From Dehalococcoidia bacterium (GTDB lineage Bacteria > Chloroflexota > Dehalococcoidia > DSTF01 > WHTK01), in the NCBI GenBank assembly GCA_009377745.1, contig WHTK01000019.1:1-64000 (forward strand): DNA of 64,000 bases. Reading direction: 5' to 3'. Position numbers and translations under genes: made by a program. Shown one piece after another: positions 51,434-60,439 of the stretch. Under the pieces are notes generated by a model. That model saw only the letters and a list, made by a program, of their open reading frames with translations. It did not search any database and had not been told where the DNA came from. The stretch's first letter is position 1, and each line of letters starts with the position of its first letter.

Positions 51434-51479
51434 GGCGACAGGTGGATTCGGACCGCCGATGGGGGTTTTGCAGACCTCT
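51434..51479 (-). repeat. Displaced 3' half of tRNA-Cys (att-like direct repeat, left edge)
   Basis: The 46 nt match 54785-54830 inside the intact tRNA-Cys with about four mismatches. They cover acceptor 3' strand, T arm and anticodon loop including GCA. The similarity stops on both sides, as expected for an attachment-site copy left by site-specific integration at the tRNA 3' end. Confidence 0.75.
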
Positions 51480-51576
51480 CTCCGGCCCTCGCAGCCTCTC
51501 GCACTCGCCACAAAACTGAAATTAGCACCTTGGCGTCGCAGCTTGATGTCGCTATCGCGTTCTTGCCAAGCGCTCC

Positions 51577-51582
51577 TATAAT
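51577..51582 (+). promoter_or_regulatory. TATAAT -10 box of the helicase gene
   Basis: A perfect TATAAT lies 38 nt before ATG 51621. The -35 is not clear. Confidence 0.45.
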
Positions 51583-51620
51583 CGGTCCACACGGATCGCT
51601 TGGTTCACACGGAGCTATCG

Positions 51621-54431
51621 ATGGTGGATTATCGCGCAACCGAGCTGCTCGACAAGCTCATCAAGTGCTTTACGTGGAAACCTCAGTCCAATGAAGAGCG
51701 TAACTTGATCGTCCTGGGTGACATCGTGCACTCTCCGACTTTAACGTATCTCACTGATGAGGAGATAAGAATTACCTCCGAGCTGCAAACGCATCTTTCT
51801 CCTGACGACTGGGCCCAGTTACCCAACCTCGTCACCAGACGCAGACTCGAGGTGGCGGAAGAGTCGTTTTTCAAGCGCCGCCAGGAGGAAGAGCGGCGCG
51901 AGGCGGAGGTCAAAGCGAGGCGCCAAGAAGCGGAGCGTGCAGCGCGCGAAGAGCGTGACAGAATCAAGGGCGAGACGGAGAGCAAGGCGCGAAAGGCTGT
52001 TCTTGTCACCCGGCTCAAGGGTCTGTTTCGATCAGACTTCTTGTCTGCTGACGACGCTTTCGATTCCGATCCTGACGCCGCGCTCCTCTCCGCCGACGAG
52101 TATGCCGAACTAAAGATTAGTTTCGTACATGATTGGGGCGCACGAGAACTCCCGAAATCTTTTTTACTCGACGACGAACAGGCGGCCGCGGTCGCAGCTA
52201 CGCGAGGAAACGTCCAAGTCGTGGCGCGAGCAGGAACCGGCAAGACGCGAACGCTCGTGGCGCGGGCCGTCTTTTTGCAGAAGCACTGCGGAATCTCTCC
52301 TCGCTCCTTGCTCCTTCTCGCATTCAATAGAAAAGCGGCGGACGAGATGAAACTTCGCCTGACTGATGTACTGGGCCGGGACCAAGACCTGCCTCACGTC
52401 ATGACCTTCCACGCTCTGGCCCACGCGCTGGTGCATCCCGATGAGGAGATGCTTTTCGATGACGTCTCGACTGATCAATTCGGGCTAAGCCGCGTGGTTC
52501 AGGATGTAATCGATGAGCACATTCGATCCCAGGAGTACGGACAACGAGTTCGCGAATTGATGCTGGCTCATTTCCGAAATGACTGGGAGCGCATCGTTGA
52601 AGGGCGTTTTCAGTTGTCGATCGATGAATTTCTCGCCTACCGGCGCGCCCTCTCCAGAGAGAGTCTCAAAGGTGACTTTGTAAAGTCGTATGGAGAGAGG
52701 GTCATCGCGAATGCACTCCTCGAGCACAGTGTTGAGTACCGATACGAGAGAAACTTTCGCTGGAATGGTCTCAACTACCGGCCTGACTTCACCATCCCCA
52801 CTTCGTCCGGCGGGATCGTAATCGAGTATTTTGGGCTCGCCGGTGACCCGGATTATGACGAAATGTCGCAGCAAAAGCGGGACTTCTGGCGACAACAAGG
52901 GGACTGGACATTTCTTGAGTTCTCTCCCAGGGATCTGACGGATCCGGAAGCTTTCGTTGCTACATTGCTGCAGAAGCTCCAAGAAGGGGGAGTATCCAGT
53001 CGTCGCCTGTCTGAAGACGAGATATGGGAGCGCATACGAGTCAGGGCGCTAGATCGCTTCACTGAAACCACGAAGTCCTTTGTTAGCCGGTGTAGGAAGC
53101 TTGATCTGCGCGCCGCTGACCTGGAATTGCGCATTGCCGGTCATCGTGCCTGTTCGAATGCAGAGAAGCTTTTCCTTGAAGTAGCTCTTCCCGTTTATGA
53201 ATCGTATCTGCGCCGGCTGGCCGACTTGAACAAGGAAGATTTCAGTGGGCTTGTCTGGCGGGCAGTCGCACTCGTGCGCAATGGTCAGACCAGTTTCGTG
53301 CGTGATAGAGGACGCGAGCGCGGCGACCTTTTTGGTCTACGGTTCGTGATGATCGATGAGTTCCAGGACTTCTCACGGGTGTTTTTTGATCTCGCGGCTG
53401 CAGTCTGTTCACTTAATAGAGATGTCCGGTTCTTCTGTGTAGGTGATGACTGGCAGGCAATCAATGGATTCGCGGGATCTGACTTGCGCTTTTTCACGAG
53501 CTTCTCTGAATATTTTCAAGATGCTGTAAGACTCTACTTGCGCAGTAACTACCGCTCTACAAAGACGGTCGTGCAAGCCAGCAACGCGCTGATGATCGGC
53601 CGCGGCCCAGAGGCTGAAGGCTCGCGATCTGAGCGTGGCGAGGTCCTTCTGTGCCGTATGGATGAGTTCACGCCCTCCGAAGTCGAGACGGAGCAACATA
53701 ATGGTGACGAAATCACCCCCGCAGTGCTTCGGCTGGTCTGGCGTTTTCTCGGCCAAGGGCGAGAGGTGGTCTTGTTGTCCCGGAGAAATGGCCTGCCCTG
53801 GTACGTGAGTTCTGGCAACTCCGCTAGCATGCCTGCAGAAGCCTTAACAAGGTTCGTGGCACGACTTCAGTCATTCCTGCCTGAGGATGACGGCAAACGT
53901 CTCACTGCCTCAACCACGCATAGATATAAAGGCCTTGAAAAATCAGCCGTGATTGTTTTGGATGCCGTCGAGAGAAGCTACCCATTGATACATCCCAACT
54001 GGGTTTTCCAGAGAGTGTTTGGAGATAGCATCTCTCAGATCGAAGATGAGGAAAGACGGCTCTTCTATGTAGCCCTTACAAGGGCTGCGGATTCGCTGGC
54101 ACTTGTTACGGAAAAGGGCCGTCTGAGTCCATACTTACAGGACATCGCACGATCCTTTCAGGTGCCCTCTCTCCAATGGGCCGCTCTGCCACCTGTACCA
54201 TCGCTGGAGAATGAACGGCTAGAAGTCAGGGTGTTCCATGCATTTAACGTCATGGATCAACTCAAGGATCTCGGCTACCACTTCCGCGTTAGCGGCGACG
54301 ATAAGTACTGGAGCCGGGCAATCCCAGCAGAGAACTTCTCCTTTGACACGCTGCTCAGTCAGCCATGGGTGAAACCTGGTGTAGGGATCCAGGTCTATTC
54401 GGAAGGTGGGGAGTTGCTACACAAGCGTTGA
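51621..54431 (+). CDS. UvrD/Rep-like superfamily 1 helicase with inserted nuclease-like segment
   Basis: This 936-residue protein runs from ATG 51621 (CGGAG 6 nt upstream). The N-terminal region has a charged coiled coil (about 85-125). The helicase begins with a Q motif DDEQAAAV (about 184-191), Walker A AGTGKT (204-209) and AFNRKAADEMKLRL (motif Ia). An insert at about 355-440 has GERVIANALL, YRPDFTIP and IVIEYFG, resembling a PD-(D/E)xK nuclease (Asp389, Glu402). Walker B is MIDEFQDFS, then GDDWQAINGFAGSD, and motif VI is VALTRAADSLALV. It is lower in GC than its neighbours. As the only intact gene of the tRNA-Cys island, it may act in defence or element maintenance (inference). Confidence 0.85.
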   Translation: MVDYRATELLDKLIKCFTWKPQSNEERNLIVLGDIVHSPTLTYLTDEEIRITSELQTHLSPDDWAQLPNLVTRRRLEVAEESFFKRRQEEERREAEVKARRQEAERAAREERDRIKGETESKARKAVLVTRLKGLFRSDFLSADDAFDSDPDAALLSADEYAELKISFVHDWGARELPKSFLLDDEQAAAVAATRGNVQVVARAGTGKTRTLVARAVFLQKHCGISPRSLLLLAFNRKAADEMKLRLTDVLGRDQDLPHVMTFHALAHALVHPDEEMLFDDVSTDQFGLSRVVQDVIDEHIRSQEYGQRVRELMLAHFRNDWERIVEGRFQLSIDEFLAYRRALSRESLKGDFVKSYGERVIANALLEHSVEYRYERNFRWNGLNYRPDFTIPTSSGGIVIEYFGLAGDPDYDEMSQQKRDFWRQQGDWTFLEFSPRDLTDPEAFVATLLQKLQEGGVSSRRLSEDEIWERIRVRALDRFTETTKSFVSRCRKLDLRAADLELRIAGHRACSNAEKLFLEVALPVYESYLRRLADLNKEDFSGLVWRAVALVRNGQTSFVRDRGRERGDLFGLRFVMIDEFQDFSRVFFDLAAAVCSLNRDVRFFCVGDDWQAINGFAGSDLRFFTSFSEYFQDAVRLYLRSNYRSTKTVVQASNALMIGRGPEAEGSRSERGEVLLCRMDEFTPSEVETEQHNGDEITPAVLRLVWRFLGQGREVVLLSRRNGLPWYVSSGNSASMPAEALTRFVARLQSFLPEDDGKRLTASTTHRYKGLEKSAVIVLDAVERSYPLIHPNWVFQRVFGDSISQIEDEERRLFYVALTRAADSLALVTEKGRLSPYLQDIARSFQVPSLQWAALPPVPSLENERLEVRVFHAFNVMDQLKDLGYHFRVSGDDKYWSRAIPAENFSFDTLLSQPWVKPGVGIQVYSEGGELLHKR

Positions 54432-54449
54432 AGTGCCGTCGTCCATTCG

Positions 54450-54610
54450 CTAACCTGCCACGTTGACCTGCTTCTCAGCGATGTTGACCTGAATGGATGG
54501 CCATAGCAGACGGCGCACCTGGCCAGCGTCTTAATCTCTGCCAAGTAGCGCTTCTGGCACTGGGTCGCTCGCCGCTCTAAGAACTCGACCTGGTGTTGCG
54601 GCCCGGTCAT
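54450..54610 (-). pseudogene. Small mobile-element protein remnant, frameshifted
   Basis: From ATG 54610 the frame reads MTGPQHQVEFLERRATQCQK-RYLAEIKTLAR. It then loses frame by one base near 54520. The next frame continues with VRRLLWPS and QVNIAEKQVNVAG to TAG 54450. That ending is typical of a short hypothetical protein common in mobile DNA (KTLAxVRRL... QVNIAxKQVNVAG). It converges with the helicase gene. A single base restores one frame of about 53 residues. Confidence 0.6.
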
Positions 54611-54780
54611 TGTTCTAAATTACGGATTGACTCATTGTGATGCAGCACGAGCCAACTTGAGCGGACCTGATTGACGCGCAACCCCTTCCGCCGCTAAAGA
54701 CCGGCATCGAGAGGTTTGCTGCCAAGGCTCGTCATGATCAACGAAGCGGCCTGTCATCGGCCGCTTCGTATCTGAGTTAT

Positions 54781-54855
54781 TGGAGGCGACGGGCGGATTC
54801 GAACCGCCGATGGGGGTTTTGCAGACCCCTGCCTTAACCACTTGGCCACGTCGCC
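54781..54855 (-). tRNA. tRNA-Cys (GCA)
   Basis: The minus strand folds as a full cloverleaf. Acceptor GGCGACG pairs with CGTCGCC, the anticodon stem GGGGT pairs with ACCCC, the loop CTGCAAA contains GCA, and the T arm contains GGTTCGAATCC. CCA is encoded at 54783-54781. It marks the right edge of the island 51434-54784. Confidence 0.93.
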
Positions 54856-59187: not shown

Positions 59188-59217
59188 CCGGCCCAGGTCA
59201 ATTGGAGCCGGTTTTTT
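59188..59217 (+). terminator. Intrinsic terminator with T6
   Basis: CCGGC (59188-59192) pairs with GCCGG (59207-59211), extended by CCA/TGG with one bulge, then TTTTTT. It directly overlaps the TTG start of the methyltransferase gene. Confidence 0.6.
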
Positions 59218-60439
59218 GCTAGACACCACTAAGCCTCAAGTCCAAGAAGTCTCTTTGCTGGCCCTCCACCCGGCAGACTGGAACCCGCGCTCCATTAAAG
59301 ATGAGCGCTTCCAGAACCTCTGCGAGTCGATCCAAGCCGACCCGGACTTCCTCTGGCGCCGGCCCGTCCTAGCTCAGGCTGATGGCACGATCTACGCGGG
59401 GAACATGCGCTACAGGGCTGCCCAGCACCTCGACATGGAAACGATTCCGGCCATTGTTGAGGACGTGCCGGACCAGCTCGCTCGCGAGCGCGCCCTGCGC
59501 GACAACGCCCAGTGGGGCGAGTGGGAGCCGGACGAGCTAGCGCTCATGCTCGATCGCCTGCGTGGCGAGGGTAGCGACCTCAGCGTCCTTGGCTTCGACG
59601 ACCGAGAGCTGCAGCGACTTCTCGACAGCATGAGCAAACCCCTCGGCCTTGTCGATCCAGATGATGTGCCGGCGCTGCCGGAGGAGCCGGTCGCCAAGCC
59701 GGGCGACCTCTACCAGCTAGCACAGCACCGCCTGCTCTGCGGTGATGCCACCAGCGCACACGATGTTGCCATGGTGATGGGCGACGAGAAGGCGTCCTGC
59801 GTCTGGACCGACCCGCCTTACGGCGTCGAGTACGAGGGTGGCACCAAGAAGAAGCTGACGATCAAGAACGATACGGCTGACGGCCTGAGTCAGCTCCTCG
59901 AGTCATCGTTCGCGGCTATCGACGCGGTCCTCATCGAAGGCGCCGCGATCTACGTCGCCCATCCCGCAGGCGCTCTTTCCGTCACCTTCGGGCAGCGCTT
60001 CCTGGCCCAGGGCTGGCGGCTGCACCAGACGTTGGTCTGGGTGAAAGATTCGCTGGTCCCTGGCCACTCCGACTACCACTACCGCCACGAGCCGGTCCTG
60101 TTCGGCTACAAAGCCTCACAGGGCCGCAGGGGCCGTGGTAGCGGTGGTTGGTACGGCGGCAACGACTGCTCGTCCGTGTTCGAGATCCCGCGTCCGAAGG
60201 CATCGCCAGACCACCCGACATCGAAGCCGGTGGCCCTAGTTGAGGCGATGGTGAAGAACAGCAGCCGCTCGGGCGAGATAGTGCTCGACCCCTTCCTCGG
60301 TTCGGGCAGCACTCTGATCGCTGCGGAGTGCCTCGGGCGCCGTTGCTTCGGCATCGAGCTCGACCCTCGCTACGTGGACGTGGCGGTGCGCCGCTGGGAG
60401 GCCTTCACCGGCGAGACCACGAGAAAGCTCGGTGGCTGA
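59216..60439 (+). CDS. ParB-like nuclease domain / DNA methyltransferase fusion
   Basis: This is a 407-residue protein. An N-terminal ParB/Srx-like domain (about 10-110) has VSLLALHPADWNPRSI and the GxxR-type IYAGNMRYRAAQHL. A DNA methylase of the D12/N6-N4 beta class follows, with catalytic DPPYG at 199-203 and, after it, the SAM motif LDPFLGSGSTLIAAE. The order catalytic motif first, then SAM motif, marks the beta class. Such fusions are typical of phages and integrated elements and protect element DNA. No restriction enzyme is adjacent. The TTG start lies in a terminator T tract, so a later start near 59252 or read-through is possible. Confidence 0.88.
   Translation: MLDTTKPQVQEVSLLALHPADWNPRSIKDERFQNLCESIQADPDFLWRRPVLAQADGTIYAGNMRYRAAQHLDMETIPAIVEDVPDQLARERALRDNAQWGEWEPDELALMLDRLRGEGSDLSVLGFDDRELQRLLDSMSKPLGLVDPDDVPALPEEPVAKPGDLYQLAQHRLLCGDATSAHDVAMVMGDEKASCVWTDPPYGVEYEGGTKKKLTIKNDTADGLSQLLESSFAAIDAVLIEGAAIYVAHPAGALSVTFGQRFLAQGWRLHQTLVWVKDSLVPGHSDYHYRHEPVLFGYKASQGRRGRGSGGWYGGNDCSSVFEIPRPKASPDHPTSKPVALVEAMVKNSSRSGEIVLDPFLGSGSTLIAAECLGRRCFGIELDPRYVDVAVRRWEAFTGETTRKLGG

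Follow-up and report, generated by a model that had tools for sequence, protein, structure and literature searches.

How did a single gene of low GC content come to lie between an intact tRNA-Cys gene and a partial copy of the same tRNA, and what might the encoded protein, a helicase with an inserted nuclease-like segment, do? This question is raised by one locus in a 64,000-nucleotide stretch of DNA from a Dehalococcoidia bacterium, hereafter the window. Beside the helicase gene lie tRNAs and genes for a response regulator and a metalloprotease-like protein, and ARAGORN places a tRNA-Leu immediately upstream of the tRNA-Cys; no CRISPR array was found in the window. The locus has the following features.

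51434..51479, minus strand: decayed 46-nt copy of the tRNA-Cys 3' part, without the CCA end, putative distal half of the attachment site (direct repeat, 42/46 identical)
51621..54431, plus strand: intact gene for an SF1A helicase with a predicted internal nuclease, 936 aa (ORF, Pfam, AF2 model, GC3)
54453..54610, minus strand: possible relic of a frameshifted gene, ~53 residues, doubtful (two-frame reading)
54742..54768, no strand assigned: perfect 10-bp hairpin, CGAAGCGGCC / GGCCGCTTCG, terminator-like, just downstream of the tRNA-Cys (read from the sequence)
54781..54855, minus strand: intact tRNA-Cys (gca), presumed integration target (ARAGORN)

An earlier note on this DNA had described the repeat as a copy of the tRNA 3' half, with the intact tRNA on the side expected after integration at a tRNA 3' end, and both statements hold: the two lie 3.35 kb apart in the same (direct) orientation, and the copy spans the 3' part of the tRNA from the anticodon stem-loop onward. 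Since the second-best match to the 46 nt of the tRNA-Cys in the whole window, on either strand, reaches 26/46, a chance origin of the copy is excluded. The final 4 nt of the tRNA are missing from the copy, where GTGG stands in place of TCCA, and one pair of its T-stem is broken, thus it has decayed and is a tRNA no more. Its T-stem letters are those of the G000/G001 lineage, as would be expected if the copy were the displaced original 3' end. It bounds a low-GC block that extends to the tRNA-Cys and holds one intact gene. As the earlier note had also remarked, no integrase is left between the repeats, neither as an ORF nor as a relic, and we therefore speak of a remnant and not of an intact element. 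The sole low-E match to the integrase ORF of a related genome (G007, see below) falls in a tRNA-derived stretch and was rejected as an integrase relic. The frameshifted scrap gene of the earlier note fared less well: its two-frame reading has no relatives in 99 genomes, plasmids or phages, hence it is perhaps no gene at all.

That tRNA-Cys is a used integration site in this order follows from a complete element in G007, where 8.6 kb lie between tRNA-Cys and a matching 45-nt copy of the tRNA 3' part. This element shares with the window the same tRNA and the same kind of 3' copy; it differs in its size and in its content, lacking such a helicase and encoding, according to PHROGs, a phage major head protein, an exonuclease and, where it meets the tRNA, a tyrosine integrase. 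The anticodon loop is where its 3' copy begins, and a copy in G013 has the identical start. We note that the G007 element (positions 3106-11802 of L040, G007:C2:148000-164000), whose major head protein is of the HK97 type, is too small for a phage and is possibly a phage satellite. Only one further genome of the family was found, G001. It has a Trp-Leu-Cys-Leu tRNA cluster without an island, and a second tRNA-Cys with an ORF at its 3' side that was identified by eye as integrase-like. Both G001 and G002 have no island at tRNA-Cys, but their left flank differs from that of the window; in the relatives' genomes the metalloprotease, the response regulator and tRNA-Leu(taa) lie elsewhere or have no close relatives near tRNA-Cys. 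A tRNA-Cys fragment in G003 was discarded as an attachment-site copy because it sits at a contig end, an assembly break. Since no genome examined keeps both flanks of the window locus, we infer the remnant, albeit strongly: the tRNA-Cys locus is very probably what is left of a tRNA integrative island.

The one intact gene of the block encodes, as the earlier note had read it, a 936-residue UvrD-like helicase. Its main sites are listed below.

52230..52247, plus strand: Walker A, AGTGKT, residues 204-209 (motif scan)
52656..53036, plus strand: predicted PD-(D/E)XK nuclease domain (residues 346-472), inserted in the 1B region after motif Ic and before motif II (domain model, VIA-align)
52695..52877, plus strand: predicted nuclease catalytic residues E359 (52695-52697), D389 (52785-52787), E402 (52824-52826) and K419 (52875-52877) (alignment)
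53355..53369, plus strand: Walker B / motif II, DEFQD, residues 579-583 (motif scan)

The protein is an SF1A helicase of the UvrD / helicase-IV-like kind. Pfam finds UvrD-helicase with an E value of 1.5e-38, the N-terminal domain being separated from the C-terminal one by a long gap, and a motif scan finds the SF1A motifs I, Ia, II, III, V and VI, all present and in order; Walker A is invariant in 20 alignment rows save residue 206 (T/S). An AlphaFold2 model of the full-length protein, built with 20 homologs (pLDDT 82.9), has, besides the helicase core, a long N-terminal helix (67-149) and a nuclease-like alpha/beta domain between motifs Ic and II. The fold of the motor matches UvrD, PcrA and Rep. 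When Foldseek was run with the full model, only UvrD-like motors came out at the top, and we therefore modelled the nuclease separately.

Modelled alone, residues 346-472 gave a pLDDT of 92.4 and a pTM of 0.87. The assignment of this domain is based on VIA-align Z scores, matches to viral models and conserved residues. VIA-align ranked the homing endonuclease I-Bth0305I at the top (Z 11.0, 2.5 A over 95 residues), with further matches to Vsr (Z 9.4), Bax1 (Z 8.6) and Can2 (7.8), and the alpha-beta-beta-beta-alpha-beta core of the PD-(D/E)XK superfamily is present in the models and these alignments. Foldseek with the nuclease domain alone found no PDB match below E 0.001. Among the matched viral models that bear names, homing, Vsr-type and restriction nucleases prevail, and T7 endonuclease I comes out weakly (E 0.14) in a search with a profile of the domain, in register over the E, PDF and E motifs. 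Thus, according to the models, the segment that the earlier note had called PD-(D/E)xK-like almost certainly has the fold of a PD-(D/E)XK nuclease, and the lack of such a fold, by which the earlier note would have been refuted, was not encountered.

The two residues named in the earlier note, Asp389 and Glu402, are the right ones, and E359 and K419 complete the set. E359 and E402 are kept in 20/20 alignment rows and D389 and K419 in 19/20, hence the acidic triad E...D...E is present. The canonical place of the lysine, two residues after the second acid, is occupied by F404, thus K419, which is conserved on the next helix, would presumably be used. Displaced lysines are known in the PD-(D/E)XK superfamily, and the fold assignment therefore stands. 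In the one exceptional row (L068), D389 and K419 are both lost, as would be expected if the two residues act together. This cyanobacterial gene (L068, 9668-12574), in which D389 is replaced by S and K419 by R while the motor is kept, appears to be a natural nuclease-dead version.

We next consider where the gene came from. Its GC content is 0.546 compared with 0.65-0.71 in seven neighbouring genes, and its GC3 is 0.600 compared with 0.81-0.92, in agreement with the lower GC reported in the earlier note. Inheritance as vertical core sequence of all relatives, which the earlier note had named as the contrary case, is ruled out, since the gene is found neither in G001 nor in the rest of the order and is present in only 4 of 400 genomes of the phylum. 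Full-length homologs (37-62% identical) occur in at least seven phyla, namely Actinomycetota, Chloroflexota, Fraseribacteriota, Cyanobacteriota, Pseudomonadota, Myxococcota and Poribacteria, the sequence most similar to that of the window being from Fraseribacteriota; the tree of these homologs mixes the phyla, with the Actinomycetota nested among others. One homolog lies on the 20-kb Anabaena plasmid pANA03, adjoining a tyrosine recombinase, and at several homolog loci the GC content of the gene is clearly below that of the surroundings. No close relative was found by a pattern scan of 2.9 million viral contigs, which returned only motor fragments of 25% identity, and a phage search gave weak motor matches alone. 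We have very little doubt that the gene was horizontally acquired, and the sequence comparisons indicate that it has been transferred often.

Other members of this wider group deserve mention. In Ottowia and Acetothermia (L076, L080), the homolog is split into at least two ORFs, by gene decay or by sequencing errors. More distantly related proteins that have an insert of this kind abound in databases under the name 'UvrD-helicase domain-containing protein'. Two such distant and widespread helicases with a similar nuclease insert, L049 1503-4367 and L050 7642-10710 (in G079 and G087), add C-terminal cysteine-rich, zinc-ribbon-like segments and are apparently uncharacterised.

The genes beside some of the homologs hint at a role in defence. 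Defence genes (type III CRISPR, BREX or DNA-methylase genes) directly adjoin 4 of the ~25 close homologs; the remaining ones are mostly alone among housekeeping genes, outside defence clusters. In L067, BrxC and PglX are followed by the helicase homolog and then by an overlapping MkoA-like gene. In L061, a PglX/type IIG-like methylase ends 8 bp before the homolog, and in L064 Cmr1 and Cas10c lie downstream of it. In G075, a CARF-HEPN gene lies 170 bp upstream of the homolog, with Cas10a and Csm3 divergent and with a CRISPR array and HmaA downstream. As separate observations, the G075 locus (L048, G075:C1:2066000-2085000) is a type III-A CRISPR locus in which the CARF-HEPN gene, the helicase-nuclease homolog, a 19-copy array and HmaA make up one defence island, and the MkoA-like SF1 gene that overlaps the end of the helicase in the BREX locus (L067, 12682-14202) is a possible functional partner.

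The earlier note had tentatively supposed a compact gene of defence or of conflict with plasmids or phages. In a search against the defence profiles of PADLOC, generic motor stretches and the nuclease stretch of the candidate defence family PDC-S68 were matched, the latter counting in favour of a defence role, and no known defence family covers the whole protein. GajB of Gabija likewise has a UvrD-like motor, and its PADLOC profiles match motor stretches of the window protein; however, GajB lacks a nuclease of its own inside the chain and acts together with GajA, and no GajA-like gene adjoins the window gene. Membership in Gabija was rejected on this missing partner. The C-terminal stretch 1095-1183 of PDC-S68 matches the nuclease insert (residues 341-428) with 53 bits, but that protein has 1221 residues, its matching stretch is at the C-terminus, and the likeness is confined to the nuclease. 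Hna is a one-protein combination of helicase and PD-(D/E)XK nuclease in phage defence (PMC13381803), but its motor is SF2, DinG-like, and its nuclease is C-terminal (PMC13381803); an SF1A protein with an internal nuclease was thus not assigned to it. DNA helicase IV (HelD of E. coli) has an SF1A motor with shared motor residues and provides the best curated profile; yet the identity is 26%, E. coli HelD has no nuclease insert, and the score lies far under the cut-off (172.9 bits against 543), thus membership in this family was rejected as well. Finally, the insert has the same fold as Vsr and the EDxHD homing endonuclease I-Bth0305I and aligns weakly with T7 endonuclease I, whereas in the window protein the nuclease sits inside a helicase, with F404 after the second acid and K419 on the next helix. 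A literature search for this helicase-nuclease architecture or for PDC-S68 returned nothing matching, most subscription papers lying outside its coverage.

A history and a role may thus be proposed. An integrative element would have entered the 3' end of tRNA-Cys, restoring the tRNA and leaving the displaced 3' part 3.35 kb away, and would later have shed the integrase together with most other genes, so that one foreign gene stayed: an SF1A helicase with a Vsr / T7-endonuclease-I-like PD-(D/E)XK nuclease in its 1B region. The 1B subdomain of UvrD contacts the duplex DNA ahead of the motor. A nuclease at this position would meet the DNA during unwinding or at branches, and the closest relatives of its fold count junction, mismatch-nick and homing nucleases among them. 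The protein might load on single-stranded DNA or DNA ends and move 3'-5' with ATP, and the motor would bring the nuclease onto branched or unwound invading DNA, from a phage, a plasmid or a rival element, which would be cut there. As its relatives are scattered over many phyla and stand at times in antiviral clusters, it is probably a one-protein defence gene; the product would be an immunity protein that works alone and is at times placed inside type III CRISPR or BREX operons. Defence is the likeliest role, which we hold with roughly even confidence, and that branched DNA in particular is cut is rather doubtful. Tentatively, the protein may represent a new, horizontally spread family of one-protein immune genes, in which a helicase-IV-like motor with a Vsr / T7-endonuclease-I-like 1B nuclease would recognise and cut branched or unwound invader DNA, either alone or as an ancillary to type III CRISPR and BREX. 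Taken as a whole, a decayed tRNA-Cys element with the helicase-nuclease as its immune cargo is the best explanation, with about an even chance of being right.

Other explanations must be weighed against this one. The helicase-nuclease could be the element's own enzyme of replication, recombination or maintenance, left over from decay, and no immune gene. It does sit in an element remnant, and homologs are found beside the recombinase of pANA03 and, by eye, near a serine recombinase in L057; however, many homologs are alone in chromosomes without other element genes, four appear to share operons with type III CRISPR, BREX or methylase genes, and the pattern scan of viral contigs and the phage search yielded no close relative and weak motor matches, respectively, which makes such an origin unlikely. 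We give a similarly low probability to a mobile, helicase-IV-like repair helicase that resolves damaged or branched host DNA, for which the island would be an incidental location. The curated profile and the UvrD/PcrA/Rep fold of the motor would agree with this, as would the repair and junction enzymes (Vsr, Bax1, Hjc) among the fold neighbours of the nuclease, but the gene is rare, patchy and foreign in composition, its homologs adjoin defence genes in several lineages, and the genome has other genes for its housekeeping helicases (G000:C39).

A further alternative concerns the island itself: the 46-nt copy could be the relic of a duplicated tRNA-Cys gene, the helicase having come otherwise, without site-specific integration. 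G001 indeed has two tRNA-Cys genes, and neither an integrase nor an empty site was found in the window's lineage. Yet the copy covers the 3' part alone, begins, like the copies in G007 and G013, in the anticodon region, lies on the expected side and in the expected orientation, carries the T-stem letters of its own lineage and bounds the low-GC stretch; a duplicated tRNA is thus quite improbable.

If the role is indeed immunity, an SF1A motor with an internal nuclease would join Gabija, Hna, Nhi and Hachiman among the helicase-nuclease defence proteins, and unwinding could be coupled to cutting at the fork within a single polypeptide. Because the gene is intact, portable and stands by itself, direct tests are possible. 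The locus itself would show a tRNA element eroding down to one cargo gene. Elsewhere in the window, positions 59216-60439 encode a fusion of a ParB domain and a DNA methyltransferase that is typical of phages (PHROGs phrog_498), and the ORFs that follow it near the contig end, which have no PHROGs matches, are possibly a second mobile region.
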